This document shows, in pieces, positions 2,448 to 39,777 of a DNA stretch of 42,920 nucleotides (position 1 is the stretch's first letter; the number at the start of each line of letters is the position of its first letter). Source of the stretch: a virus; IMG/VR virus record IMGVR_UViG_3300042396_000673, positions 1 through 42,920 of that record; one strand, written 5' to 3'. A model generated the notes under the pieces. That model was not told where the DNA came from. It searched no databases and was given only the letters and a program-made list of their open reading frames with translations. The position numbers and the translations under genes are program-made.

Positions 2448-2681
2448 TCACTTCGTTCTCTCCAAAAGTCCGTCAAGGACCGCCGCTATCTCGTTGCATT
2501 TCACATCGTCCTCATCGGCGTAAATGTCTCGCACCTCTTGCAAAACGAACCGTTCCGATTTGGTAAGCGTGGGTTCTTCGCTGTTAATTACGGCCTGTAG
2601 GCGCCGCACTTCTGCCGCGAGTAACGCTATCTCGCGATCATCAGGCCGAGATGCCTCAATTACGTCAGGGTCGATTCTCAT
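2448..2681 (-). CDS. Small LLERTK-family protein, last gene of the cassette (77 aa)
   Basis: This is one of five small adjacent proteins that end in LLERTK or a close variant. The start MRIDPD at 2681 overlaps the previous stop as ATGA, which favours it over an ATG 39 bases upstream. It has a short coiled-coil-like segment (ALLAAEVRRLQAV) and ends LDGLLERTK. Its LTDEER equivalent is diverged to LTKSERF. Function is unknown. Proteins of this type are, from memory, frequent in planctomycete genomes and their phages. Confidence 0.75.
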   Translation of the reverse strand: MRIDPDVIEASRPDDREIALLAAEVRRLQAVINSEEPTLTKSERFVLQEVRDIYADEDDVKCNEIAAVLDGLLERTK

Positions 2682-3103
2682 TTGGTTTTCTCCAGAAGTC
2701 TGCTTAGTGTGATGGCCCACTCCGCACGTTGAGCAGGATTCATTGACGGCTCGCTAACCATTATTTTCCTAGCCATATTTATCGCCTCCCGCTCCTCGTC
2801 GGTGAGGGCGTGTTGGCCGGAAAGGCCATCAATGATTTTCTCGCGATCCGCGTCTGTCACCCACAGCATGACGCTGTACGGTGCCTCATCACGCGGAGGT
2901 GCAGGAAGACGCATCCAGTGAGTTGGCCTGCCTGACTCATTCCAGCGCAGGCCGGGTTGAGATTCATCGTCGATCTCTCGCCACGCCATGCCGTATGCGG
3001 CGTTTCCCCAGTGCTGGTCTGCATCGCGGAATCCCAGCACGGCCCCGCCCTTTTCGGGCAGGGATTCTTCAACAGAAATCCACATCGAAAGTAATGTCCT
3101 CAT
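2678..3103 (-). CDS. DUF551-like domain fused to an LTDEER/LLEKTK tail (141 aa)
   Basis: The N-terminal half begins MRTLLSMWISVEESLPEKG and later has THWMRLPAPP, the start and end signatures of DUF551 (WISVxxxLPxxG ... HWMxLPxPP), common in phages. The C-terminal half carries the cassette motif ALTDEEREAI and ends SRLLEKTK. So a DUF551 module has been joined to the LLERTK tail. The ATG at 3103 overlaps the upstream TGA, and GGAGAGG inside the upstream gene's LLER codons is its ribosome binding site. A longer reading starting near 3271 would run through the neighbouring gene and is unlikely. Confidence 0.78.
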   Translation of the reverse strand: MRTLLSMWISVEESLPEKGGAVLGFRDADQHWGNAAYGMAWREIDDESQPGLRWNESGRPTHWMRLPAPPRDEAPYSVMLWVTDADREKIIDGLSGQHALTDEEREAINMARKIMVSEPSMNPAQRAEWAITLSRLLEKTK

Positions 3104-3300
3104 TTCGTCCTCTCCAGTAGTGCGCGGAGCGTAGCGGCTGCGCTGTCTGCGCGAATGTATTTCATTTGGTTGATCGCAAACTTCAGAGAATCCCGTTCCT
3201 CGTCGGTGAGTGTCAAGTGTTCCTGCGAAGAATCTTGACACGGCCCAGTACCCCAGACCGTTTTTCGCCACTCGGTCATCTGGTCGTCAAGGTCGCTCAT
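3100..3300 (-). CDS. Small LLERTK-family protein (66 aa)
   Basis: A 66-residue protein with a variable N-terminus (MSDLDDQMTEW), the shared LTLTDEERDSLKFA block and the terminal LRALLERTK. The ATG overlaps the preceding stop as ATGA, and the gene overlaps the next by the same four bases, so the cassette appears translationally coupled end to end. No catalytic motif is visible. The pattern (fixed tail, variable head) suggests an adaptor or interaction tail, which is inference. Confidence 0.78.
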   Translation of the reverse strand: MSDLDDQMTEWRKTVWGTGPCQDSSQEHLTLTDEERDSLKFAINQMKYIRADSAAATLRALLERTK

Positions 3301-3626
3301 TTTGTCCTCTCCAGTAGGTTGCGAAGCGTGTCAACGCGATCAAACTCTTCGCAGTTTCCAGCGAGTTCTTCCGCCCACTCCACCGCCTCCCGCTCCTCGT
3401 CGGTGAGCGTGGGCTGAAAAATCCTCGCAATCCTCCGCGCCGCAAGCCTCGCCCTGTCTTCGGCGTAACTGTTGCCGCCCTGCCACTTCTTTGTGGTGCC
3501 CTCGCGATACCACCGCATGGCGCAGTGGACGATTTCGGCACCCCGCTCCAGTTGGGATTCCCCGTGAGAACCAGCGGATGCAGGAGACATCGCCTTGTCG
3601 TCCTGCGGTGTAGTTTCGTCACTCAT
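3297..3626 (-). CDS. Small LLERTK-family protein (109 aa)
   Basis: This 109-aa protein has a polar N-terminus, a central segment with MRWYREGTTKKWQGG, then PTLTDEEREAVEWAEELAG and the terminal RNLLERTK. The EREAVEWA helix is the best conserved part of the family. The start at 3626 has GGAG about eight bases upstream and, unlike the next three genes, lies 25 bases after the previous stop. The stop overlaps the following ATG. Function unknown. Confidence 0.78.
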   Translation of the reverse strand: MSDETTPQDDKAMSPASAGSHGESQLERGAEIVHCAMRWYREGTTKKWQGGNSYAEDRARLAARRIARIFQPTLTDEEREAVEWAEELAGNCEEFDRVDTLRNLLERTK

Positions 3627-21829: not shown

Positions 21830-24800
21830 TTAGTCTCCGATCCCGACCAACTTCCGTTCTTGCTGCATTGCGTTTCTGAGGAAACGCACAATTTGCGGCA
21901 AGCACTTCGCGACATCGTTGACAAACACAACGTGCTTGTCGCCATACTGTCGCTTAAAAGCACCCTGCTGCGTACCGTGCACGCCAACAGCGAACGCATA
22001 TGTGCTGATCTTGAGGCGCTCACGTGTGAATTTGCACACGCTCGTGACATGCTTTTCAGCAGTTTCACCGCCGTAGCCAGAACCAGCTGGCAAACCGTCG
22101 GCAATTACAAACAAGTACTTCTTTTTAGCCTGATCCTCTGACAGCCGTTTTGCTACATCTTTGATAGCGTAGCCGTCGTAATTGTTGGAATGTGCACGAA
22201 TACCGCCGAGCCTGGTTAAATTTTCACCGTCGCGCGGCGTATAGTGCTCAAAAATAGTCATTGAGTCGGCACCAAACTCATTAGCAGTGTGACCGTAAAC
22301 ATACAAACGCACTCCCGCGATCTTTCTGACCGCCTCGGCGAGCATAATGCAGATGTCACGGGCACTGTTGATTTTGGGGCCTGACATGCTACCAGACTGG
22401 TCAACGAGTAAACCGACTGCCACGTCGGGCAGTTTGCTTATCGTCTTTTGCGACCAGATATGTTCGCAGTCGTAATCCAACTTATGCAGGCTGCCCTCGT
22501 CGAGATCGCCGGACAATAAGCCGTGAACTTCAACGCTGCGGCGGCCCGCCTGGAACTGCAATGCACTCCGAATACGTGCAATAGCGTTTTTGTTTTTCGT
22601 ACGTACGATTTGCACAGTCTTTTGGCTGTCACCGAGGCGACCACTTTCTTCGCGCACCCGTGCCTTTGGTTTTGTAGAATCGCTGTTGTTTAAATACGCA
22701 ACATACTCTTCTTCTTGGGCGTTGCTGGCCTCGTCATTAACGTGACCGATAGCGTCGCCAGTCAAAACCTTGGTCTTAGCCTCAACCTTTTCGCCGAACA
22801 AACCACCGTCAACCGGACTAAATGCCGCATGTGCGGCCCCCATCTTTTCATTAACGTTTTCCGCGGTCTTTTCTGCAGCACTGCTGTCTTTGGCGGAACC
22901 CCTGAGCGTATTCAATGCCCGAATTAACTTTTCCATCGTATCTAGGTCGAGCTTGGGCGCGGCTATCGCGTTACGGCGCTCTATCGGTTCCAGCCCGCTT
23001 AACTTTGACAGAAAGCCGCCCGACAGCGTCTCAAGCAACTGTGCGAGAAATCCAACGTCGGAGATTGCCTCGTGGCCCATGGTATTTTCTACGGCCACGG
23101 GCACAGCCGCTGATTTAGGCAGGTCATCATGTTGCATCGCCTGGCTCAACTCGCGAACCAAGTTCCGCAGCAGTCCACTAGTGTGCAACTCATAGTTGTC
23201 ATAAAACGTATGTGCAGCACGACTATTAAGTGCCGACATTACGGATCTGACTGCGTTAAGCTGTGTTACCAGTTTGTCTGACGTACGACACTCCGCGACA
23301 AGATTCTCAGAATGCTCGATGCGCGGCAGATTGTCTTTGATTGTCTGAATATAAGTGGAAACACCCTCAATAAGTTTATTTAACAACGCTGTTGCACACA
23401 CTTTTTCGCCGTGTAACGTGGGGCCGGCCGCAACGTCATTTCGCAGTTTTTCAAGTTTTGCTTGAATCTCTACGAACTTTTCTCGCTGGGTTTCAAAATG
23501 AGTTTTTGCCCCGTGAATTGCCTCTTGAACTTCTGTCTTGTTTGGGCCGTGAAGCGTCTTAGCTGCGGCTTTTGCCTTTTTAACAAGATCTTCTAGCAGG
23601 CTTTGGACTTTTTCGACGTCCTTTTCGGTCGGCGCTGTACTCATTAATTCGGCGTGCAGTTTATCGAGATTCGGTACAAACTCGCGAGCTTCTGCCACAC
23701 CCGCTTTTTCCAAAGCCTCTATTGCCTGCGGCCGAGCCTGCAGCGCGTAGGCTATTTGATGCCGCAGCGTGTCAACGGTTGAACGCTTGGCGGCGGGGGT
23801 GAGATGCTCGTCGGCACAACTAGACTTAACACTTTCAAGCTGCTTATCGAGCGACTTAATCGCTTTGATTAACTGCTCAATAGACTGCTCACCACGCGCC
23901 TTGCTGCCTGCCCGTGCCAACAATTCTTCTTGCTCGTTGCTTTTTGCCAACCCGTTGCGCTGCTGCTCTGCAATATCGCCCATACCCTCGCCGAGACAGG
24001 TCAGCATATCCTTCATTGCACTGGCACCAGTACTCGTCTTACTCTGCTCTTCTTGTGCCTGCTTGAACATATCCTGCAGGGCGTTTTCAATATCGCCTGC
24101 GGGGGCATCTTCGTTTTCTTTATGCAACAAATCGCTGATGTCGTGTACAAGCTTCTGACACGTCTCAAGCAAGTTTGCCGGCTCGACCTCGGCACCCAAA
24201 TGCTTTGACGCGAGTTCGGCTACTTGCTCTGGAATGGCTAGCGGGTCCTCATCAGCGATCATGTTGTAAGCCAGCCGGCCTACAATCGCTTCTAACGACG
24301 GTTCTGCCTTTTCCAGGTTTTCACGTACCGTAATAAACTTTTTCGCGTGACGCACGAAGTAGGGCGCGAAACCACCCCAGTCTGACACCACCGTACGGCG
24401 AGCCAGCCGCGTGAGCATGCTTTTTGCAAGCATTCCAGCCAGGTAGTACTCGGTTGTAGCGAGTGCCATTTTCTTGGCGTCTAACTTGCTAAAATTTGCG
24501 TCATTTGCGAAAAATTCTTTGGCCGCGTGAAAGCCAATCAATTGCAGACCTGTGCCGTTAATTGGTCCCAGCACGTCAGGAGTGATATCCTGCGAAATCT
24601 GCACACGAAGCAATACAAACCCTGTAAGTGCGTCGACAATCGCGTCTTCGACTTCGGCCGTATCGCTCGCCAGCAGGTCGTCGGGCGACACAAAAACGAC
24701 ACGCTGTTTGTTGTCGTTTAATGCGTCGGTGACGCCGTTGCTGTCAGAGCCCTGGCTAAACTGCACAGCAAATGACGTCTTATTTTGACCAGTCTTATCG

Positions 24801-25252
24801 ACAATCGTATTGGCACTGCGTGTCAGGTTGCGCAGTGCACGGATCGCCTTGTTCTGTGCGTCGCTGTCTGTACCGTAAGCAAATGACGTACGACTAGAAA
24901 ACGTCGAACGAAACAAGCTAGAAGGCGAGTAATCGACATTGCGACTATATCGAAAACTGTTTCGGCGATACCAGTCCATGTCCGAATCGTCAAACGACTC
25001 GCTGTAACTGTAGCCGCTGTATCCGTATCCGCCGTAATCAGAACCCGCGCGATCATCGGCAGCATAATCGCCGTAAGAGGAATAACCGCCTGACTTTTCA
25101 GTGTGAAAACCAATTGGTCCGTGTTCGTCGCCGTCGTCTTCAATAGATCGATAATCTGGATTTGGCCGAGGACCGCGAGGCTTCTTAGCCTCGTCGGTAT
25201 CCTTTTCGGCTTCGTAGTTGCCCCACAGAGACTTCCACTTTTTATCTGCCAT
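21830..25252 (-). CDS. Giant CobT-like VWA-domain protein (1140 aa)
   Basis: The C-terminal 200 residues form a von Willebrand A domain: VGLLVDQSGSMSGPK (near residue 950) is the MIDAS DxSxS, with YVYGHTANEF and VIADGLPAG further on, as in cobaltochelatase CobT. The N-terminal 120 residues are Gly/Tyr/Ser/Asp-rich and probably disordered. The middle 600 residues are helical and Lys/Glu-rich. It follows the MoxR ATPase gene by three bases, so the two probably work as a MoxR-VWA machine that remodels or inserts metal into a target. It is much larger than the cellular CobT (about 600 aa). Confidence 0.87.
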   Translation of the reverse strand: MADKKWKSLWGNYEAEKDTDEAKKPRGPRPNPDYRSIEDDGDEHGPIGFHTEKSGGYSSYGDYAADDRAGSDYGGYGYSGYSYSESFDDSDMDWYRRNSFRYSRNVDYSPSSLFRSTFSSRTSFAYGTDSDAQNKAIRALRNLTRSANTIVDKTGQNKTSFAVQFSQGSDSNGVTDALNDNKQRVVFVSPDDLLASDTAEVEDAIVDALTGFVLLRVQISQDITPDVLGPINGTGLQLIGFHAAKEFFANDANFSKLDAKKMALATTEYYLAGMLAKSMLTRLARRTVVSDWGGFAPYFVRHAKKFITVRENLEKAEPSLEAIVGRLAYNMIADEDPLAIPEQVAELASKHLGAEVEPANLLETCQKLVHDISDLLHKENEDAPAGDIENALQDMFKQAQEEQSKTSTGASAMKDMLTCLGEGMGDIAEQQRNGLAKSNEQEELLARAGSKARGEQSIEQLIKAIKSLDKQLESVKSSCADEHLTPAAKRSTVDTLRHQIAYALQARPQAIEALEKAGVAEAREFVPNLDKLHAELMSTAPTEKDVEKVQSLLEDLVKKAKAAAKTLHGPNKTEVQEAIHGAKTHFETQREKFVEIQAKLEKLRNDVAAGPTLHGEKVCATALLNKLIEGVSTYIQTIKDNLPRIEHSENLVAECRTSDKLVTQLNAVRSVMSALNSRAAHTFYDNYELHTSGLLRNLVRELSQAMQHDDLPKSAAVPVAVENTMGHEAISDVGFLAQLLETLSGGFLSKLSGLEPIERRNAIAAPKLDLDTMEKLIRALNTLRGSAKDSSAAEKTAENVNEKMGAAHAAFSPVDGGLFGEKVEAKTKVLTGDAIGHVNDEASNAQEEEYVAYLNNSDSTKPKARVREESGRLGDSQKTVQIVRTKNKNAIARIRSALQFQAGRRSVEVHGLLSGDLDEGSLHKLDYDCEHIWSQKTISKLPDVAVGLLVDQSGSMSGPKINSARDICIMLAEAVRKIAGVRLYVYGHTANEFGADSMTIFEHYTPRDGENLTRLGGIRAHSNNYDGYAIKDVAKRLSEDQAKKKYLFVIADGLPAGSGYGGETAEKHVTSVCKFTRERLKISTYAFAVGVHGTQQGAFKRQYGDKHVVFVNDVAKCLPQIVRFLRNAMQQERKLVGIGD

Positions 25253-25255
25253 TAA

Positions 25256-26719
25256 TTAGGCTCCCTTGCTGGTCGCCGCCGCCTGGGCCGCGATCAGGTC
25301 ACCAAACTTGCCCTGAATAATGCTCTGCACCTTGACGCGCTCGGAATCGTCGTCGCCTTCGGGAGAGAAATGGTTTGTGATTGTAAACTGCAGGGTGTCA
25401 ACGCCGCCCAGCACAAAGTCGTGGGCTGCCGCGATCAACTGCCGGGTAGACAGGCTTTCCGTCAGCGTAGCCGACAGTCCAGTCGAATCTTGCCGGATCT
25501 TGTTAGCCATCTGTACGAGCCGCGACGCAATGTCCTTGGTTACGCCAGTACGGTTAACAAGCAACTTTACCTCGTCGCTTTCGGCAAGATACGTCAGTTC
25601 GACGGCACGCGGGAAACGATCTCGAATCGCACGGTCGAGTGCCGACGTACCGGTATAGCCGGCGCCCTCGTTCATCGACGCAAAGAACACCGTACCCGGC
25701 CCGACGATGATCTTGTCGCCCTTCTCCTCAAGGTATGTAAACCGGCGGGCGTCCAGAATCGGCATCAACGTATTGAGCAGATTCGGATTTGCACGGTTAA
25801 GCTCGTCGAGCAGGATGACGTGGTTGCCGTTCTGCACCGCACGCACAAACTGCGACTCATGCCAGAACACGGTGCCCTCGCGGGCAGACTTGTACCCGAA
25901 CCAGTCGCGAGCCTCACGGAGATTAGCGCAGTCCATGATCAGCAGCGGCCGATCGTGTCGGGCTGCAAACTGGATGGCCAGTTCAGTCTTACCGCAACCA
26001 TGTGGTCCGATAAGATTAACATTTTGCGGGCACTTTTTGCTGGACGTTTCCAGAATTCCAAACAGGCGCTCGATTTGCGGGTTAATGATGTACGTCGTGT
26101 CAGACTTCGGATAAAAGACGCCGTGCTCTTCGTCCTTTTCCTTTTCGGCTTCCGCACTAACCACACCGAGCTTTGGAGACTCCTTGGTCATCCGGGCGAA
26201 GCCGTAATCGTTACCCGCAACCGGCGTTCCAAACGACATTTCGGCCGCCTTCTCTGCGGCGGCAATTGCCTTGGGGTGACCGTTAATGAACCAGCCGTAC
26301 TTTCGCTCGTTCATGATCGAGTTCACAGCCCGCTTGTTCAAGTTAATAACAGCCACTGCACGACCCATCCAGTCAGAACCTGGGCAGCCGTCGGCAGCGT
26401 TGAATTCGTCTACAAGTGCCTGAAGGGAGTTACGCTGTTTCTCCCACATCGAGCCGGACAGCGTATCGATCATCGCGACGAGCACGCCATAGGCGACCGA
26501 TTCGCCGGACACTGCGTCGCTATCAGAGGCAGACCCGTTCTCGATTACCCAGTCCTTTAACTTCTTGGCAGTCGTGCCTTCAGCGCTGATAAGTTCGTTT
26601 GGAACAACGCTGACAGCCACTTCAATATCTTCGCGGTTATAGTGATTCGCGGCCATACGACCACGGTTGCTCGGCATAAAACCAACAGCGTCAGCGTCTT
26701 CGTTCACGTACAGGTACAT
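25256..26719 (-). CDS. MoxR/CobS-type AAA+ ATPase (487 aa)
   Basis: The Walker A LIGPHGCGKTEL (residues 236-247), Walker B VILLDELNRA (301-310), sensor-like FFASMNEGAGYTG and the ALDRAIRDRFPRAV arginine-finger region are those of MoxR and CobS. The first 200 residues form a separate unknown domain. MoxR ATPases act as chaperones with VWA partners; the partner gene is directly downstream. In phages, cobS/cobT-like pairs have been annotated as porphyrin genes by homology only, so a chaperone role is at least as likely as cobalamin synthesis. Confidence 0.92.
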   Translation of the reverse strand: MYLYVNEDADAVGFMPSNRGRMAANHYNREDIEVAVSVVPNELISAEGTTAKKLKDWVIENGSASDSDAVSGESVAYGVLVAMIDTLSGSMWEKQRNSLQALVDEFNAADGCPGSDWMGRAVAVINLNKRAVNSIMNERKYGWFINGHPKAIAAAEKAAEMSFGTPVAGNDYGFARMTKESPKLGVVSAEAEKEKDEEHGVFYPKSDTTYIINPQIERLFGILETSSKKCPQNVNLIGPHGCGKTELAIQFAARHDRPLLIMDCANLREARDWFGYKSAREGTVFWHESQFVRAVQNGNHVILLDELNRANPNLLNTLMPILDARRFTYLEEKGDKIIVGPGTVFFASMNEGAGYTGTSALDRAIRDRFPRAVELTYLAESDEVKLLVNRTGVTKDIASRLVQMANKIRQDSTGLSATLTESLSTRQLIAAAHDFVLGGVDTLQFTITNHFSPEGDDDSERVKVQSIIQGKFGDLIAAQAAATSKGA

Positions 26720-30066: not shown

Positions 30067-30249
30067 CTACTGCTTACACAAACTTCGGTACGCATACACC
30101 GGCAACATAAGCACACCGAAAAGCACGGTCAGGATTAAGCCTCCTGTTATTATGCATAGTTCGGTGGCTATGTTTTCGAGCCACTGTAGTTCGACCGGAT
30201 CTGAGTCGTGCCGAGACGACCGATTAAACCTACGCCTACGTTTGCACAT
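30067..30249 (-). CDS. Small membrane protein divergent from the terminase (60 aa)
   Basis: A very basic N-terminus (MCKRRRRFNRSSRHDSD) is followed by one strong membrane span (CIITGGLILTVLFGVLMLPV). Its ATG at 30249 abuts the internal ATG of the terminase gene at 30250 (CATATG). A longer start at 30288 is possible but would lie inside the terminase frame. No ribosome binding site is evident. It may be a real small membrane protein or a shadow. Confidence 0.42.
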   Translation of the reverse strand: MCKRRRRFNRSSRHDSDPVELQWLENIATELCIITGGLILTVLFGVLMLPVYAYRSLCKQ

Positions 30250-32178
30250 ATGGCACCAGAAAAAATAATGCAGGATGGTAGCCTGCACGAATCAACAGCG
30301 GTTGAAATTCCAGACGCAGGAGTTCAATCGCTGTTACAAGAACTGCTGTCAATTAACACGGCCGACCAAGCGTCCGTTACATCGCGGACGGCTGTGTTGA
30401 AAGAACTGGCAACAAGATGCGCGTTTCCGTCGCTTGAGCCAATTCTTCCGCTTGTATTGAATTTAAATGGTAAGCCGTACAGTATTAAAGATCATTACCC
30501 GTTCGGCCCATTATTCAGAGTATTAACACCCAAAAATCAAGTGTGGAAAACCGGGCGTCAGTTAAGTAAATCTACGTCGCTCGCGGCGCATGGAATTGTA
30601 GTCGCTAACTCTATTCCATTTTTTAAGACGTTGTATGTCACGCCGCTGTACGAGCAGATTCGCCGTTTTTCCAACAATTACGTGCGACCGTTTATCGACC
30701 AGTCGCCTGTCAAGTCTCAGTGGTCGAGCAGCGAGACTGAGAACTCTGTGTTGCAGCGCAGCTTCAAGAACAAGTCTTTAATGCTGTTTTCTTTTGCACT
30801 GCTTGACGCTGACCGTGTCCGCGGTGTGTCGTCTGATCGAATGTGCATCGACGAAGTTCAAGACATGGACCCTGACCACATTCCAATTATTCAAGAGACG
30901 ATGAGTTATTCGCGTTACGCGATTTCTCATTTTACGGGGACGCCAAAATCGACTGATAACCCGTTAGAGGGGTTGTATAAAAGGAGCAGTCAAGCCGAGT
31001 GGTTCATTCCGTGTTACTCGTGCGGCAAGTGGAACATACCGTCTATCGAGCACGATCTTGATGCCATGATCGGGCCCATGAACATTCACATCAGCGAGAA
31101 AAACCCTGGTACTGTATGTGCAAAGTGTCGCAAACCGATTAGCCCGCGGCATGGGCGGTGGGTGCATAGACACCCTGACCGCCGCTGGCAATTTGCCGGG
31201 TATCACGTGCCGCAATTAATTTTGCCGCTGCACTTCTCAGATCCTGAAAAATGGAACACGCTGCTACTGAAGCGCGAAGGTTACGGCAACATGACGCAGG
31301 CACAGTTCTACAACGAAGTCATGGGCGAATCTATCGACGCCGGTCAAAAACTTATTAGCGAAACAGAACTACGTGCGGCGTGCCTGTTGCCATGGGAAAA
31401 CAAAAAAGAACCCGTACGTGAAGTGTTTGAAAATTTGAATGATTACCGCTCACGCGTGCTGGCCATCGACTGGGGCGGCGGTGGCGAAGAGGGTATTTCG
31501 TTTACTGTGTTGACGGTTCTTGGTTTTCGTCACGACGGCACAATTGACGTCCTCTGGGGGAAACGTCTGCTCATCGGCGGCGATCACTTAGCAGAAGCCG
31601 TTGAATGCATGAAATACTCTGATTTATTTCAGTGCGAATTTGTGGCTCACGATTACACCGGGGCCGGCACGGTACGTGAAACCGTTATGGTGCAGGCGGG
31701 GTTTAACCTAGACCGCGTGCTAGCGATGCGTTTGGTGCGGTCAGCGTCGCAGGATCTTATGGTGTACAAACCGCCGACAGCGATCAACCACCGCGCACAT
31801 TACAGCCTAGATAAAACACGTTCTATTCTTTACACGTGTCAGGCTATCAAATTAAAACAAGTCAGGTTTTTCCAGTACGACTGGGCTTCGCAGGACTCGC
31901 CTGGTTTGATTTCTGACTTTTTAGCGCTGGTAGAGAACAAAGCAGAATCACGCATGGGCGGCGACATTTACACCATCACGCGAAACACGCTTCTTAGCGA
32001 TGATTTCGCGCAGGCTGTAAACATCGGCTGTGCCGCGTTGTGGCACATCAACGAAGCCTGGCCTAACTTTGCCCAGTTGGCCGGTCTCGGCCGCATTACG
32101 CAGCAGCAGGCCAAAAACGAACTTGAAGACGACCACTGGGCAGACGACGCTACGGCAGATCGTTTTTTCGGCTATTAA
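30208..32178 (+). CDS. terL: Phage terminase large subunit, GpA-like (656 aa)
   Basis: Counting from the GTG at 30208, a deviant Walker A (GRQLSKST, 116-123), Walker B (RMCIDEVQDM, 211-220), a CYSC...CAKC zinc pair (269-272, 304-307) and nuclease acids in AIDWGGGG (D421) and HDYTGAG (D482) form the ATPase-nuclease layout of GpA-type terminases. It cuts concatemers and pumps DNA into the prohead. The ATG at 30250 is an alternative start; neither has a clear ribosome binding site. The gene is alone on the plus strand, with no small subunit or portal gene recognised next to it. Confidence 0.93.
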   Translation: MPRRPIKPTPTFAHMAPEKIMQDGSLHESTAVEIPDAGVQSLLQELLSINTADQASVTSRTAVLKELATRCAFPSLEPILPLVLNLNGKPYSIKDHYPFGPLFRVLTPKNQVWKTGRQLSKSTSLAAHGIVVANSIPFFKTLYVTPLYEQIRRFSNNYVRPFIDQSPVKSQWSSSETENSVLQRSFKNKSLMLFSFALLDADRVRGVSSDRMCIDEVQDMDPDHIPIIQETMSYSRYAISHFTGTPKSTDNPLEGLYKRSSQAEWFIPCYSCGKWNIPSIEHDLDAMIGPMNIHISEKNPGTVCAKCRKPISPRHGRWVHRHPDRRWQFAGYHVPQLILPLHFSDPEKWNTLLLKREGYGNMTQAQFYNEVMGESIDAGQKLISETELRAACLLPWENKKEPVREVFENLNDYRSRVLAIDWGGGGEEGISFTVLTVLGFRHDGTIDVLWGKRLLIGGDHLAEAVECMKYSDLFQCEFVAHDYTGAGTVRETVMVQAGFNLDRVLAMRLVRSASQDLMVYKPPTAINHRAHYSLDKTRSILYTCQAIKLKQVRFFQYDWASQDSPGLISDFLALVENKAESRMGGDIYTITRNTLLSDDFAQAVNIGCAALWHINEAWPNFAQLAGLGRITQQQAKNELEDDHWADDATADRFFGY

Positions 32179-33514: not shown

Positions 33515-34207
33515 TCAGACCTTGACGAGCGACTTCGAAGCACGACGCTTCTTCATCGCAGCCTCAGTGGGCTCTTCGCCGTACACGGCACTCATGCCAG
33601 GCGTGAGGCAATCAGCCGTGAAGCGCCCGAACCTAGGCCGCCACTCGCACAGGCCGCACATCGTGCCCGCTTTCTTGATCCAGCGATCAAGTTGGGCAAA
33701 ATTGATGATTGAGTCCTCGAACGAAATCGACACAACAGCCGACCAGTCATGGAAGATTGGCCGAGTCGAGACGACGCGAGACTGCTGCCGCGCCACCAGC
33801 GTGGTGAACCGGAAACCTTCGGCTTCCGGAGTCGGGCGGGGCGACGTGTCTTCAAACATTGCTTCCGGCTCGCGCGGACCGGCGTACTCTAACTTAAAGA
33901 ATCCCGGGGGCGCCGCGAACACAGCGCACTTGGCGAGCTGGCCTTCCTTGGTCTTTCGAGCCGCGGCGTTAATCGCTGCTACGATGGTCGCACCGGGCAG
34001 TACGGGACCCAACTCCTCGTGCATATGCAGGCTGCCGAGGAACTCAATATGCCCCATCTCGATGTGGTCGGCGTCGGTCTTGACGCGCTTCGAACTGACG
34101 CTCTTGAGCGCCTTAGAGAACTTGTTCAGCGGGTTTGCCATCTGAACGTTTTTCACAACCATCGGGCCGTCCCCGGTGATCTTGTAATCAACATTAACCC
34201 AACTCAT
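33515..34207 (-). CDS. Conserved phage protein with WRPRFGRFT motif (230 aa)
   Basis: MSWVNVDYKITGDGPMVVKN, DPLNKF-like (NPLNKFSKALKSVSSKR), MGHIEFLGSLHMHEELGPVL and, near the end, MCGLCEWRPRFGRFTADCLT are conserved in a widespread phage family usually next to an HNH gene, as here. The family has no assigned function. A role in DNA processing is suggested only by neighbourhood. ATG and the upstream stop overlap as ATGA. Confidence 0.78.
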   Translation of the reverse strand: MSWVNVDYKITGDGPMVVKNVQMANPLNKFSKALKSVSSKRVKTDADHIEMGHIEFLGSLHMHEELGPVLPGATIVAAINAAARKTKEGQLAKCAVFAAPPGFFKLEYAGPREPEAMFEDTSPRPTPEAEGFRFTTLVARQQSRVVSTRPIFHDWSAVVSISFEDSIINFAQLDRWIKKAGTMCGLCEWRPRFGRFTADCLTPGMSAVYGEEPTEAAMKKRRASKSLVKV

Positions 34208-34521
34208 TGATCTATGTCCTTCCGTTGATGAATCGTGGGAACAATGTAATTACAGCCCAAGTCTTTGTTTTTGTAGCGACGAGCTCGTATTACATTTGTT
34301 ATTGCTTCGTGACACTCGCTGCATAGCGTAATTAAATCTTTTTCGACATCCTCTTCGCCAAACCGTTCATACGTCTTGTGATGCACTTCGAGCTGATATA
34401 CAGATCCGTCGTGCAAACACGTTTGGCATTCATAGTTGTCAATCACTAGACGTTGCGTGCGCTTTTCACACCAGTCATATCTGGCCATGCGCACGGCATA
34501 ATTTAACGTCGTTGAATCCAT
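34204..34521 (-). CDS. HNH endonuclease (105 aa)
   Basis: CQTC (about 33-36), LEVHHKTYERFGEED, DLITLCSECHEAI and the C-terminal basic helix form a complete HNH/beta-beta-alpha metal fold with two CxxC zinc knuckles. Stand-alone HNH proteins of this size nick or cut DNA in packaging, homing or recombination. It lies directly downstream of the pentamer array. Confidence 0.88.
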   Translation of the reverse strand: MDSTTLNYAVRMARYDWCEKRTQRLVIDNYECQTCLHDGSVYQLEVHHKTYERFGEEDVEKDLITLCSECHEAITNVIRARRYKNKDLGCNYIVPTIHQRKDIDQ

Positions 34522-34561
34522 TTGTTACCCCTGGTTTATGTGTAGTTTCCGCAGCACATAA

Positions 34562-35392
34562 AACCGCAACCTACCCTAATTGTTTTGAAAGAAAAAACCA
34601 AACCCAACGTCACCCTGCGTTACCTTACCGGACGTTACCCGACCTTACCGGACCATATTTTGTTTGAAAGAAAAAACCAGACCTGACCAAACCCCAGCTT
34701 ATGCCACCCCACCGAGCCAAACCCTATTTTGTTTGAAAGAGAAAACCAGACCTTACCGTGCCTGACGTTACGCTACCGAACCAGACCGCACCCTAAATTG
34801 TTTTGAAAGAAAAAACCGAACCAAACCCAATAGCGCCATGCGTTACCGAACGAAATCAAACGTTGCCAAAACAGACACTACCGAACCGTACCGGACCTAA
34901 CGCAAATTATTTGAAAAAACCATACCGAAAGCTACCGGACAAAACGCAACGATACCGGACCTGACCGCAAAATTTTGAGAAGAGAAAACCAAACAAAACC
35001 GAGCCTAACGATACCCTGCCGTACGCTTGTTGAGAAAAAAACCATACCTGACCTGATCCCGCCATACCGTACCATGCCGTACCGGACAAGACCCTACACG
35101 ACGTTACAACACCTTATATGTTTGAAAGAAAAAACCAGATCTGACCAAACCCCAACTTACCCTGCCCCACGCTACAGTTTTGAAAAAGAAAAACCCTGCC
35201 ACACCGTACCAAACCTAACCCGACGGCATTCGACCGAAGCTAACCACAAAGTTTTGAAAGAAAAAACCATACCCGATCGAACGTTACAACACCTCACGTC
35301 ACCAGACCCGACCTAACGATAAAGTTTTGAAAGAAAAAACCTAACCTTACGCCGCCATACCGAGCCGGACCTGACCTTACGCCAGCCGACCA
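34562..35392. repeat. Array of about 113 NNRCS pentamers in eleven A-tract-led blocks
   Basis: On the plus strand eleven copies of TTTTGAAAGAAAAAACC or a close variant (G of GAAAG at 34587, 34666, 34735, 34805, 34913, 34977, 35032, 35124, 35182, 35256 and 35329) each begin a block of 7-17 five-base units. Counted from each motif's ACC, position 3 is A or G in every unit I read, position 4 is C in about nine of ten, and positions 1-2 vary freely. Typical units are TTACC, GGACC, ATACC and CGACG. The blocks contain 11, 9, 9, 17, 9, 7, 14, 7, 10, 10 and 10 units. No gene is visible in 34522-35400. Confidence 0.9.
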
Positions 35393-35400
35393 TAAGTATG

Positions 35401-35850
35401 TTATTTAGCGCTGTCGCCAAGAATGACGTTGCGACAGCCGCACGATGTTGCGAGAGGAAGCACATCATCTGCATAGCCCGCGACTAGTTTCTCTTTGTCG
35501 AGATAACCAGTGCTGATAAGTGCCTGCAAGCCTAATCGAGCAAAGCCCCGCCGCCGGAACGCCGGGTCGACAAAGCATTCCACCGTCTGCACAGCGACAA
35601 ACGTGTCTTTTACATGCTCGCGCCATGGGCGTGTGCCCACCCAGCCGACTAAAACACCTTTAAGCCACACGAAGGCTATTGCCATGTTGGGGTGCGGGCC
35701 TGGCTGCGGGTTGAGGTAACGCTTATCCAGTTCTTTTTGAATAGAGCTCGCACTGCCTGAGTCTGGCCACGAAAGCCGCGAACAAATAGCAGCGACATCA
35801 ACCGGCCGCAATTGATTGATGTCTTTGATGTAAATGTTAATCTCGTCCAT
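35401..35850 (-). CDS. GNAT-family N-acetyltransferase (149 aa)
   Basis: The ATG at 35850 follows GGAGG at suitable spacing. VECFVDPAFRRRGFARLGLQ is motif A of GNAT enzymes (RxxGxA/G, binding the acetyl-CoA pyrophosphate), with AFVWLKGVLVGWVGTRPW before it and CGCRNVILGDSAK at the end. Length is normal. Substrate unknown; phage GNATs often modify host proteins, nucleotides or small molecules. The pentamer array begins directly after its stop. Confidence 0.75.
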   Translation of the reverse strand: MDEINIYIKDINQLRPVDVAAICSRLSWPDSGSASSIQKELDKRYLNPQPGPHPNMAIAFVWLKGVLVGWVGTRPWREHVKDTFVAVQTVECFVDPAFRRRGFARLGLQALISTGYLDKEKLVAGYADDVLPLATSCGCRNVILGDSAK

Positions 35851-35970: not shown

Positions 35971-36336
35971 TTACCCAAAATCGATGGCGCTAATAGCCGC
36001 AAATTGTCGCATGGTCATGAATTTAACGCGTTCGCGGTAAAAAGCCGCGTCGTGATGAGCACTGATTGATTCGCCCTCGTTATCATTGCCAAGAACTAAA
36101 CCGTAACCCGCCAGCGGTTGCGGGTAGTCGGGCAGTGCAAAAAACTTAGTGCTGGGCTCGAGTTTGAGTAAGCCTTCGTCGTCAACAAAGACGTCATCGT
36201 CATCAGCCAGACGCACCAACGCAAAACAATCGACCTTGATGTGCTCATAGATTTGCTTGTAGTCGCCGTTATACGTGACGTCTGTGACTTCTTCTTTGTA
36301 CGGGTCAATCAGGACAGCCTTGTGTTCAGCAGTCAT
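35971..36336 (-). CDS. DUF3846-like protein (121 aa)
   Basis: The ATG at 36336 overlaps the previous stop as ATGA. KAVLIDPYKEEVTDVTYNGD, CFALVRLADDDDVFVDDEGL and PLAGYGLVLGNDNEGES match DUF3846 across its length. It is a small alpha/beta protein frequent in phages; function unknown. Confidence 0.83.
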   Translation of the reverse strand: MTAEHKAVLIDPYKEEVTDVTYNGDYKQIYEHIKVDCFALVRLADDDDVFVDDEGLLKLEPSTKFFALPDYPQPLAGYGLVLGNDNEGESISAHHDAAFYRERVKFMTMRQFAAISAIDFG

Positions 36337-36794
36337 ACGGGCTCCAGTTTTGTAGGCCATACGTACGGCAGGTAGATCTCTTCCATCCAGCCAAATTTGG
36401 AATAGTGCGCGTAATCTTTACGCAAGAGATTGCCGCGGTGAGACGCATGAAAGTCATCGTCGCCAAACCACGGCGGGTAATTATTTGCTTTTATTGTCGG
36501 TCTAATAATTGAGTACCGATGTTCAAATTCCCGGCATAGATTGTCTGTAAACTTGCGGCGGCGCCACTCACGGCACATGACGATGCTATAAACAAGCAGG
36601 GCTGTTTCATAGCCTGCCCACATTTGCACCGCCGGGTGGTTACGCCAGCGAGAGACGCTTGGCATATGGGCACCAATCGGCACGCCTAGGCACAGCAGTA
36701 TTTGTTTACACTCTACGCGCTGTTTGCCTAGACGCTTATTGTCCAGCACCGCCGCCGACCGCCGAAAACTCGGCAGGGGCAGAAATGTTTGCAT
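36333..36794 (-). CDS. Pyrimidine-dimer DNA glycosylase-like (DenV/MSMEG_6728-type) protein (153 aa)
   Basis: MQTFLPLPSFRRSAAVLDNK, RLGKQRVECKQIL, WRNHPAVQMWAGYETALLVY and HASHRGNLLRKD, ending LPYVWP, match the MSMEG_6728 family, distant relatives of T4 endonuclease V (DenV). A Thr following the initiator Met is catalytic in DenV; here it is Gln, with Thr third, so activity cannot be assumed. Role would be repair of UV-damaged DNA. Confidence 0.85.
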   Translation of the reverse strand: MQTFLPLPSFRRSAAVLDNKRLGKQRVECKQILLCLGVPIGAHMPSVSRWRNHPAVQMWAGYETALLVYSIVMCREWRRRKFTDNLCREFEHRYSIIRPTIKANNYPPWFGDDDFHASHRGNLLRKDYAHYSKFGWMEEIYLPYVWPTKLEPV

Positions 36795-37146: not shown

Positions 37147-39777
37147 TTATCCAATTTCTCTTGCAGGAATCTCGTTGTTTGTCCAGTAGTTATCACACCA
37201 CGGCGTACTGACTAAAATGCCCGGCATACCTTGGACGGTTTCTTCTCCGCCAAACACGCCGTCATTAATTAGCAAGTTTATAACACCGAGCCAGTTTGGC
37301 GGAATATTTTTATCGTTTGTGAAATAGTTATCTATGGCCCGGCGATTTAACCACCAAAACTCTTTGCGGCGGAGCAGGTAATTTTTTGGCTGCATTTTTC
37401 GCCGGGGCCTAGGAATTACGTCTAATTTTTCGTGGTGCACGCCGCGAACTATTTCTTGGATTAAAGCCTCGTGGGCACGTTCCGACACGCCAAATTGCTG
37501 GAGCGTTTGGGGTAAATGAAACGTGGCGCCGTAAACCTCGTCGAGCCATGTGTGCAAATCTGTTAAAACGCTGATGACCAAATTTGGTGACTTGGCGACC
37601 AGATTCATGCGGCTAAGCAGGGTATGGCGGATATAGGCCGGCAGTACATAACGCAAATCGCTAAAATCGTTTAGCGTGTCGGGCGCTACGCCGGTGCTTA
37701 TTTTGTTCCAGCCGTAACCTAGTGCGGCAACCGCCCCGGACTCTGGCATGCGCACGATTACCGGTCTGTTATGAATATGTGTAATGCTAGGTGCTGTGTC
37801 GGCGTCGTTGAACTCACTGGCTAGAAACACCGGCCAGAGTAAATCGGCCGAGTTTTTACGCAAGAAGTCGGCGACGCTGGCGCGGTGCAGTGTGGATGTC
37901 ACCCGCTGCTGGCAACCAAGTGCTGCCCCGATTCGAGCGGCGGTATTAAACGCGACTCCAGATATAGCCGTGGCGACGCAATCTTTTCTGACAATTGGTG
38001 CAATTAAATTAGCGGCTATGGTGCCAAAGACGCCCCAGACAAACGCGTTCTTATTTTCTGCTGTTAGAAAGCGCCGCACGCCAATCGGGCCGGCATCGAG
38101 CGGCTCTGGGAAACTAACCGCCTGTGATTGTTTAATTATCGCCGGCGTGTTTATAGTTTCCCCGGCATTGGTGAACGCATAGTCACGGAAACGAAACATG
38201 CTCGCCTGCTCGTCCCAGCCTGTTTTTGTGGAAACAAGCGTGAGCACGGGGCTGTGCAGTTGTATAGAAATAAGGTGGCTGCGCTTATTCCAGGACCTGT
38301 CGTAGGTGATGAGTTTCCCGTGAGGGGCGGCGATGGCGGCTGCATAAGCAAGAAGCCCCATGTGCTCGATTCGTCGTGCGTTTTCTGTGAACGTTATCTC
38401 CCAATCCCGCATGCAGACACGCCCGGCGTAAATTTTTTCACCGTCGTCTGCCTGCATAATTTGCGTGATTACCACGCGGGCATTGCACACCTGCTGCCCG
38501 ACATGGTTCCACCACGCATTGTCCTGCTCGACCAAAACCCATTTTTTATGCGTTCTTGTCGGCGCTGTCGGGGCCAGATCTATTGTCTGCAGTACGCGTT
38601 TCACAAAGTCTTCAGAGAATTGATCGCCGTGGTTTTTAAAGAACAACTGTAGCCGGCTATGTTCGATAGCCAGTTTTGTCGCAAATGAGTACGACGTCAT
38701 CTCGTTGTGCCCGGCGAGCGTTTTATTCAATACGCTTTGCCAAGTATCCGCGGCACTACATATTTTTGCGAGACACTGCAGCGTATACCGGCAACTAGGC
38801 CGGGCCGCGACGTCAGGAGCCACGACGCTTACGTAGCCTTTTCCATTGGCCGCCTGACTCAGTAATTCTGGTGTAGCGGCATTGCCCTGAAAAAATCTGG
38901 GCGTGGGTGGCAGGGCGCTCCAATTAGTGCCGTAACTAATCGCCTCCGGCCCGGCGTACCCGGCGACGATGGGCAGTGCGGGTAGGCCGTACTTAAATTG
39001 CCGGCACTGCTCTTTTAATGCCCACAGCTGGTCCTCTACGACAAACTGTTTGTTTTTTAGCACGGTCGGTGGCGGCAATAAAAGATTCGGCAAGAAGCAA
39101 TAACCGGCATCAACGCGTTGGCGGTCATACCCGCTGACCGGGATAAATGTTTTACGCATTTCTGCGTCAGCGGAGTAATGGAGCAATAAGAAACCAGACA
39201 GGCGGCCCGGAAGCGTGTAATACGGCAGCACAAGACTAGAGCCGTCTTTACGGGCTAGACGTGGCTTTGCTCGCCCGAGTTCGCGACACAACTTTAATAC
39301 TTGATCAGGATGTGCGGCTCCGACAAGGTTTGTTACGTCATACTCTGGTTTTAAACCGATGTCGTAGATCCGGCAGGCTAGCAAATCGTCGCTGTGATTC
39401 CAGAGTTGACTTGCCGCTGCCGTCCAGAATGTTTCAGCCGCTTTTTGACGACTAAACGCCCGGTCGTAATCAGCCGCTGCTTTGTCGGCTTCGGACGGCG
39501 TTATTACCCCTAGTTCCGCCATTTTTGACAGGGCATGCGGTAAACTTGTATTCCAGATTTGAGCCCCAAAGGTTATGATATCTCCATGGGCTAAACACGA
39601 ATTACAGTGCAGCCAGATACCGTCAGTGACAATATCGTCAAACAAATGTAGGGTATTTTCCTGACATAATGGACATAGAACCACAGCCGGAAACGCAGGA
39701 GTTTCCGGGGCTACCCCAAGAGCCGACAGGGCGCGAATGTGGTTATGTCGGCGAATTAAACAGGTAGGTAAACCCAT
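37147..39777 (-). CDS. Primase-helicase-like protein with CHC2-type zinc finger and a probably inactive NTPase region (876 aa)
   Basis: Residues 35-64 (CPLC at 35-38, CNSC at 58-61, H64, ending GDIITF) form a primase-type zinc finger. The middle holds VVEDQLWALK, possibly a diverged Toprim. Near 600-620, ISGVAFNTAARIGAALG sits where DUF927-type helicases have a P-loop, but the GK[ST] is missing. It resembles bacteriophage primase-helicase chains that have lost ATPase residues. Start bases overlap those of the divergent gene at 39776. Confidence 0.6.
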   Translation of the reverse strand: MGLPTCLIRRHNHIRALSALGVAPETPAFPAVVLCPLCQENTLHLFDDIVTDGIWLHCNSCLAHGDIITFGAQIWNTSLPHALSKMAELGVITPSEADKAAADYDRAFSRQKAAETFWTAAASQLWNHSDDLLACRIYDIGLKPEYDVTNLVGAAHPDQVLKLCRELGRAKPRLARKDGSSLVLPYYTLPGRLSGFLLLHYSADAEMRKTFIPVSGYDRQRVDAGYCFLPNLLLPPPTVLKNKQFVVEDQLWALKEQCRQFKYGLPALPIVAGYAGPEAISYGTNWSALPPTPRFFQGNAATPELLSQAANGKGYVSVVAPDVAARPSCRYTLQCLAKICSAADTWQSVLNKTLAGHNEMTSYSFATKLAIEHSRLQLFFKNHGDQFSEDFVKRVLQTIDLAPTAPTRTHKKWVLVEQDNAWWNHVGQQVCNARVVITQIMQADDGEKIYAGRVCMRDWEITFTENARRIEHMGLLAYAAAIAAPHGKLITYDRSWNKRSHLISIQLHSPVLTLVSTKTGWDEQASMFRFRDYAFTNAGETINTPAIIKQSQAVSFPEPLDAGPIGVRRFLTAENKNAFVWGVFGTIAANLIAPIVRKDCVATAISGVAFNTAARIGAALGCQQRVTSTLHRASVADFLRKNSADLLWPVFLASEFNDADTAPSITHIHNRPVIVRMPESGAVAALGYGWNKISTGVAPDTLNDFSDLRYVLPAYIRHTLLSRMNLVAKSPNLVISVLTDLHTWLDEVYGATFHLPQTLQQFGVSERAHEALIQEIVRGVHHEKLDVIPRPRRKMQPKNYLLRRKEFWWLNRRAIDNYFTNDKNIPPNWLGVINLLINDGVFGGEETVQGMPGILVSTPWCDNYWTNNEIPAREIG

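Follow-up and report, generated by a model that had tools for sequence, protein, structure and literature searches.

What reads a long run of degenerate five-base units that a virus carries between two of its genes? The stretch of DNA analysed here (42,920 nt; hereafter, the window) holds such an array, and it lies on the minus strand in the order GNAT gene, array, HNH gene (34521-34204), vipr (34207-33515). All genes from GNAT to vipr are on the minus strand, as is the sense of the array, and the TGA stop codon of the HNH gene overlaps the ATG of vipr. The terminase gene (30208-32178) is oriented opposite to array, HNH gene and vipr, with the array about 2.4 kb away. The window sequence was also found within two longer IMG/VR contigs, of 167.8 and 123 kb, and we therefore consider it a fragment of a larger phage. 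Other genes in the window include one for a pyrimidine dimer DNA glycosylase near the array (36333-36794; Pfam PF03013, E = 4.5e-18), CobT-like and CobS-like genes at 21830-26719 (PHROG matches: cobaltochelatase CobT, porphyrin biosynthesis), present here in a large phage, and a gene for an 876-aa protein (37147-39777) with relatives 32-33% identical and a sub-threshold DnaG zinc-ribbon match (E = 0.011), which is perhaps a primase-helicase.

We propose, with a probability of roughly 0.93, that the array is a set of 11 guide RNAs of a phage-borne VIPR (Viral Interference Programmable Repeat) system, with a mechanism carried over from the preprint in which VIPR was described (PMC13142463; bioRxiv 10.64898/2026.04.26.720920; 2026). 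In the main text of that preprint, VIPR consists of a phage-borne ancestral RAMP protein, Vipr, and of vrRNAs with 9-16 YNNGG (GGY/NN) repeats and an invariable 3′ tail. The NN pairs specify a double-stranded DNA target, one base being skipped per unit, and the system represses transcription; two clades mostly target satellites and prophages, and phages seem to aim VIPR at rival phages. Seven types (I-VII) and six accessory genes (vap1-6) are described, predicted nucleases being reported solely for those types that are enriched in defence islands. The 3′ tail of the SUSP1 clade is invariable and structured, with a pseudoknot, and VIPR is proposed as an ancestor of CRISPR (PMC13142463). Among the matches listed in our literature search, which left most subscription literature outside, there was no further paper on VIPR.

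The product of the gene that follows the HNH gene is, by sequence and by structure prediction, Vipr, a member of the RAMP superfamily with a Csm3/Cas7-like fold. The sole clear PDB sequence match of its family was chain D of 36pp, annotated 'SUSP1 Vipr protein'; E was 3.5e-62 when the family profile was used, and 2.6e-26 in a search by the window protein alone. An AlphaFold2 model built with 50 relatives had a mean pLDDT of 94.9 and a pTM of 0.86. In a Foldseek comparison of this model with the PDB, 36 entries matched at E ≤ 0.001. The 50 matches listed, of 596, are CRISPR effectors without exception, of which almost all belong to types III and VII and one to type IV; their E-values are modest (best 2.1e-5) and their TM-scores lie at 0.1-0.53.

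Dynamic-programming parsing of 34521-35410 yielded 128 five-base units in 12 blocks, plus one stray unit. Twelve of the 128 are the first unit of a tail (GGTTT in sense), which leaves 116 array units, 114 in 11 complete blocks and two in a three-unit stub. In sense, the unit is SGYNN: position 1 is S in 106 and position 2 is G in 102 of the 116 units, position 3 is Y in every one (T in 102, C in 14), and positions 4 and 5 are free, with entropies of 1.95 and 2.00 bits. Since the parse itself favours SGYNN-like units, the period is a fairer measure: 89 of 140 RC dinucleotides had a second RC exactly five bases on, whereas 1000 shuffles that preserved dinucleotides gave 23.2 ± 4.1 and never more than 40. 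The original prediction of a five-base array is thus borne out, as are its statements, made for the plus strand, that the third base is always A or G and that the first two vary freely. Its fourth base, 'almost always C', corresponds to G at position 2 in most units, but the description 'mostly GGTNN' is too strict, with GGY in only 73 of the 116 units and SGY in 94. The 11 blocks hold up, the count of about 113 units compares with 114 in the complete blocks and 116 in all, and the range of 7-17 units per block applies to complete blocks once the tail unit is set aside. The A-tract motif reported to lead each block is present, but in the sense of the neighbouring genes it is a trailing, U-rich tail.

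Table 1 Features of the array and the adjoining genes in the window
Feature	Position	Strand	Remarks
Putative VIPR guide (vrRNA) array	34561..35391	-	11 complete SGYNN blocks, each with U-rich tail, followed by 3-unit stub; arrays adjoin vipr in relatives
vr1	35337..35391	-	11 units incl. tail unit
vr2	35264..35318	-	11 units incl. tail unit
vr3	35191..35245	-	11 units incl. tail unit
vr4	35132..35176	-	9 units incl. tail unit
vr5	35039..35113	-	15 units incl. tail unit
vr6	34986..35025	-	8 units incl. tail unit
vr7	34917..34966	-	10 units incl. tail unit
vr8	34813..34902	-	18 units incl. tail unit, several degenerate
vr9	34743..34792	-	10 units incl. tail unit
vr10	34674..34723	-	10 units incl. 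tail unit
vr11	34595..34654	-	12 units incl. tail unit
3-unit stub (relic guide?)	34561..34575	-	Last block of array; usual tail absent
HNH endonuclease, candidate Vipr-accessory protein	34204..34521	-	Pfam PF01844, E 2.6e-8
vipr, 230 aa, phrog_4652 family (PHROG function unknown)	33515..34207	-	Predicted RAMP fold (Csm3/Cas7-like)

All 11 complete blocks end in GGTTT, a pyrimidine-rich run and CAA. The exact tail TTTCTTTCAAA occurs in only six of them, the remainder having pyrimidine-rich variants that end in CAA. Single-sequence folds of the 11 tails, by a method that does not treat pseudoknots as such, were no better than shuffles, and do not support a tail hairpin in the window array. Without the tail unit, 8 of the 11 guides fall within 9-16 units; vr4 (8), vr6 (7) and vr8 (17) lie outside. 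A CRISPR array was also considered and rejected, as there are no identical repeats with unrelated spacers, the blocks being pentamer runs with short tails. Rfam searches at gathering scores of the window and the loci of 29 relatives returned only tRNAs, with no match inside the arrays.

The stub, the degenerate units of vr8, the modest number of strict GGY triplets and the variable tails might indicate that the array of the window phage is decaying or no longer used. We regard this as improbable, given that eleven guides of 7-17 units are still in register, that the vipr and HNH frames are open, and that the HNH motif residues are kept in four aligned HNH proteins.

Arrays and vipr occur together well beyond the window and its near relatives. 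Felixounavirus VpaE1, Gordonia phage MakoManhole and Pseudomonas phage LESphi2, chosen because they encode a Vipr family protein, all carry SGYNN arrays with hairpin-like separators in non-coding gaps beside vipr. We then considered 96 loci fetched with the protein by alignment search, 80 of them viral (the best 80 of 179) and 16 from bacterial genomes that range from Streptomyces to Bacteroidaceae; these represent 92 distinct sequences, some groups of which are closely related, and hence fewer than 96 independent cases. With a log-odds array detector whose threshold was the highest shuffled score (22.8), a sense-strand array was detected in 93 of the 96 loci and an antisense array in none, and the sense score exceeded the antisense score in all 96. 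The best array segment was at most 808 bases from vipr (median 166). The three loci without a clear array were L185, in which the contig ends beside the gene, L210 (score 20.0) and L213 (16.8). In 73 terminase loci that served as controls, a set that includes one locus with the protein present but cut before the array (L036), scores reached 17.1 at most.

Several of these arrays also contain, between or beside the guides, what appear by eye and in single folds to be tRNA-like minihelices, in which an acceptor-like stem closes on a T-arm with the motif GGTTCGAnTCC (L115 at 1671, 3004 and 3122; L159 at 2572, 2714, 2807 and 2906; L137 at 4157 and 4265; L161 at 3663; L162 at 2896; L169 at 3813; L212 at 3605). 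Across the 96 Vipr loci the sense strand has 12 copies of the motif, 10 of them located at arrays, and the opposite strand has one. ARAGORN detected no full tRNA in L115. The minihelices might guide processing of the arrays by tRNA enzymes; the main text of the VIPR preprint does not mention tRNA (PMC13142463).

A complementary set was assembled from relatives of the window terminase (the best 80 of 119). Period-5 arrays were present in 7 of these 80 loci and a Vipr family protein in 7, and the two occurred together in 6: L034 and L035, both from the phage of the window itself; L057 and L058, which are the contigs of two further loci, L027 and L028; and L060 and L105. The two odd loci are both contig ends, L036 stopping just after the HNH gene and L101 inside the array. 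The remaining 72 had neither array nor Vipr in the stretch examined, and 36 of the 72 had a GNAT relative. The Vipr proteins of L060 and L105 are very distant family members (phrog_4652, E = 1e-14 and 3e-16), and their arrays lie 3′ of vipr, indicating that the array is not simply a leader. In these two loci the arrays (L060 10911-11691 and L105 10231-10961) are long, nearly unbroken runs of NNGGY with separators such as GGCAGG and TTTAGACATGGCAGG, they adjoin a phrog_15946 gene as well as the distant Vipr, and they are possibly of the staggered kind named in the main text of the preprint (PMC13142463). The terminase ORF of L105 (5351-8608) encodes 1085 aa rather than the usual ~650, and the sequence inserted after GRQLSKS has the look of an intein.

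The phage contigs L027 and L028, found with the 230-aa protein, are 62% identical to the window in Vipr and 77% in terminase. Both have an SGYNN array at the same place, with units that differ from those of the window and with tails such as TTTTATTTTCAAA. The suggested look for such arrays at this locus in related phages thus gave a positive answer, the arrays having diverged in place, and the contrary outcome, the same genes around random sequence, is not seen in these contigs. When L027 and L028 were aligned by BLASTN, the piece spanning array to vipr was 90.0% identical and contained 9 gap openings, as against 80.7% identity on the GNAT side. Inspection by eye showed four guides in common and two private to each contig. 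Within the four shared guides the two contigs disagree at 2 of 71 N positions and at 5 of 36 Y positions (Fisher p = 0.04, for one phage pair). A steadier N is expected if the NN pairs carry information, and would not be predicted for a neutral spacer.

These comparisons bear on two other explanations. TRAP targets are (G/U)AGNN units, a triplet and a two-base spacer repeated about eleven times. The window array shares this plan of triplet and two-base spacer, a likeness that had led to the earlier suggestion of a TRAP-like design, and it is situated 5′ of the HNH-vipr operon, as would befit a regulatory leader bound by a protein ring that controls expression, with NN as neutral spacers. Such a leader is nevertheless very improbable, even more so than a decaying array: vipr is followed by an array, on its 3′ side, in L060, in L105 and in many of the 96 Vipr loci, the triplet is SGY and not (G/U)AG, the neighbouring protein has a predicted RAMP fold, N is the more conserved position in the one pair compared above, and NN encodes targets according to the preprint (PMC13142463). 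A double-stranded DNA site for replication origin, partition or packaging, which had been offered as an alternative, has in its favour the long non-coding direct repeats not far from a terminase gene. It is scarcely credible when 72 of the 80 terminase-related loci show neither array nor Vipr in the stretch examined, half of these 72 have a related GNAT gene, sense exceeds antisense throughout the Vipr loci, and vipr has its array in phages whose genomes are otherwise very dissimilar. As the array keeps company with vipr rather than with terminase, and is found on either side of vipr, we reject a leader, an origin and a packaging site alike.

The VIPR reading accounts for the array as a guide set rather than a regulatory binding platform. 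We file the locus as VIPR because the protein and the guide design, the main testable features, agree with those described; the tail is only partly alike. The original prediction that a multimeric RNA- or DNA-binding protein reads the array survives in part: the reader is most likely an adjacent oligomeric RNA-binding protein that takes one fixed triplet per five bases of minus-strand RNA, but it would be a RAMP (Cas7-like) Vipr and not a TRAP-like ring. The two bases regarded there as a spacer would, by the preprint, be the pairs that choose the DNA target (PMC13142463). Judging from gene order and strand, the minus strand would be transcribed through array, HNH gene and vipr, and each block would yield one guide RNA, an SGYNN run that ends in a U-rich 3′ tail. 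The RAMP fold and the preprint suggest that about ten Vipr subunits would coat one guide, each gripping one GGY, and that the outward NN pairs would bind double-stranded DNA as NNxNNxNN, with one base skipped per unit, as shown for SUSP1 VIPR (PMC13142463). Once bound, the guide would silence a gene in a satellite, a prophage or a rival phage; target cutting by the coupled HNH protein is a further possibility in the window lineage.

The HNH gene is a recurrent neighbour. A related HNH ORF lies directly 5′ of vipr, or overlaps its start, in 43 of 105 Vipr loci including the window, a phrog_5926 gene follows vipr in 49, the two are never together, and 13 loci have neither. On a Vipr tree of 59 of the 105 rows, near-identical proteins having been collapsed, both labels are strongly clustered (HNH, 3 changes versus 18.4 when shuffled; phrog_5926, 3 versus 19.2), and the window Vipr belongs to an all-HNH group of 8 rows with support of 95/87. 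With vipr starts chosen by script, the HNH frame extends ~90-290 bases past the vipr start, in a different frame, in 39 of the 43 HNH loci (for example, L138, HNH 2658-3077 and vipr 2986-3609), while in the window the overlap is limited to TGA/ATG. Coupling, a frame open by chance or fusion by frameshifting could each explain the long overlaps. The main text of the preprint does not contain the word HNH (PMC13142463). A bolder proposal, which we advance tentatively and would sooner doubt than adopt, is that HNH is translationally coupled to Vipr in a separate phage-borne VIPR branch, such that guides lead to rival DNA being cut and not only silenced, with whole blocks exchanged between related phages and the array serving as a changing list of rivals. 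As a possible phage-made DNA cutter, the HNH lineage lends itself to direct test. HNH genes next to vipr are common among the VIPRs of viral contigs, and this HNH-linked variant may be of separate interest.

We decoded the 11 guides and compared them at skips of 0-3 with 0.9 Mb of related phage loci, alongside 40 permuted guides for each at skip 1 only. Ten of the 11 did not exceed their permuted guides at skip 1 in these loci, and skip 1 had in general no advantage over skips 0, 2 and 3, which gave similar maxima. The exception was vr2, for which 18 of 20 bases agreed with a site in L062 at skip 1 (best of the 40 permuted guides, 17; other skips, 14-16). This site lies within an 89-aa ORF, which by eye looks like an excisionase-type DNA-binding protein, and the skipped base falls at the codon wobble position. 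For vr2 it was also the sole match at ≤3 mismatches, with none in the backwards control, in 50 records among those behind the 80 terminase loci; vr1, vr2, vr3, vr7 and vr11 were compared with these records, and no target stood out. The same five guides had no match at ≤3 mismatches in the 167.8-kb sister record, and hence show no sign of self-targeting. Scans of the collection with 8 units each of vr2, vr5 and vr1 gave 10, 2 and 11 stretches, respectively, the best being 18 of 20 in L062 and L216 for vr2, 19 of 20 in L229 for vr1, and 18 and 19 of 30 for vr5; by our own estimate, a few such matches are expected by chance in a collection of this size. When two units (4 bases) of vr2 were held out, the ten stretches, some of them identical, matched 0-2 of the 4 held-out bases, which is the chance level. 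Across the related loci, the 50 records and the collection scans, no natural target of the window guides was established.

In VIPR, only recently described, DNA is read through a gapped RNA code (PMC13142463), and the locus analysed here extends it to large phages with long guide arrays. Two distant Vipr lineages occupy similar places in terminase-related phages. We conclude that the window is a well-supported additional case of VIPR, to which the mechanism is transferred from the preprint.

TIGR-Tas systems have a protein with a Nop-type domain. They resemble the window locus in having phage-borne arrays of guides for DNA (PMC12045711), but differ from it in protein and guide design. Class 1 CRISPR-Cas effectors such as Csm3 and Cas7 share the predicted fold of the window Vipr, and the likeness drawn in the main text of the preprint extends to a guide coated by repeated subunits and to periodic gaps in pairing (PMC13142463). 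Unlike Class 1 CRISPR-Cas, the window has no repeat-spacer array, its guide information would reside in NN only, its units are 5 nt long, and a single small protein is involved. The nearest described system is the type II VIPR of Escherichia phage SUSP1, as described in the main text of the preprint, although there the tail has a pseudoknot, whereas that of the window is U-rich and variable with no predicted stem (PMC13142463). The window also has 11 guides, all 5′ of the operon, its Vipr is on a separate branch, and its HNH gene precedes vipr, whereas Felixounavirus relatives have phrog_5926 after vipr. Common to both are a RAMP Vipr, GGY/NN guides of about ten units with a 3′ tail, carriage by a phage, and arrays beside vipr (PMC13142463).
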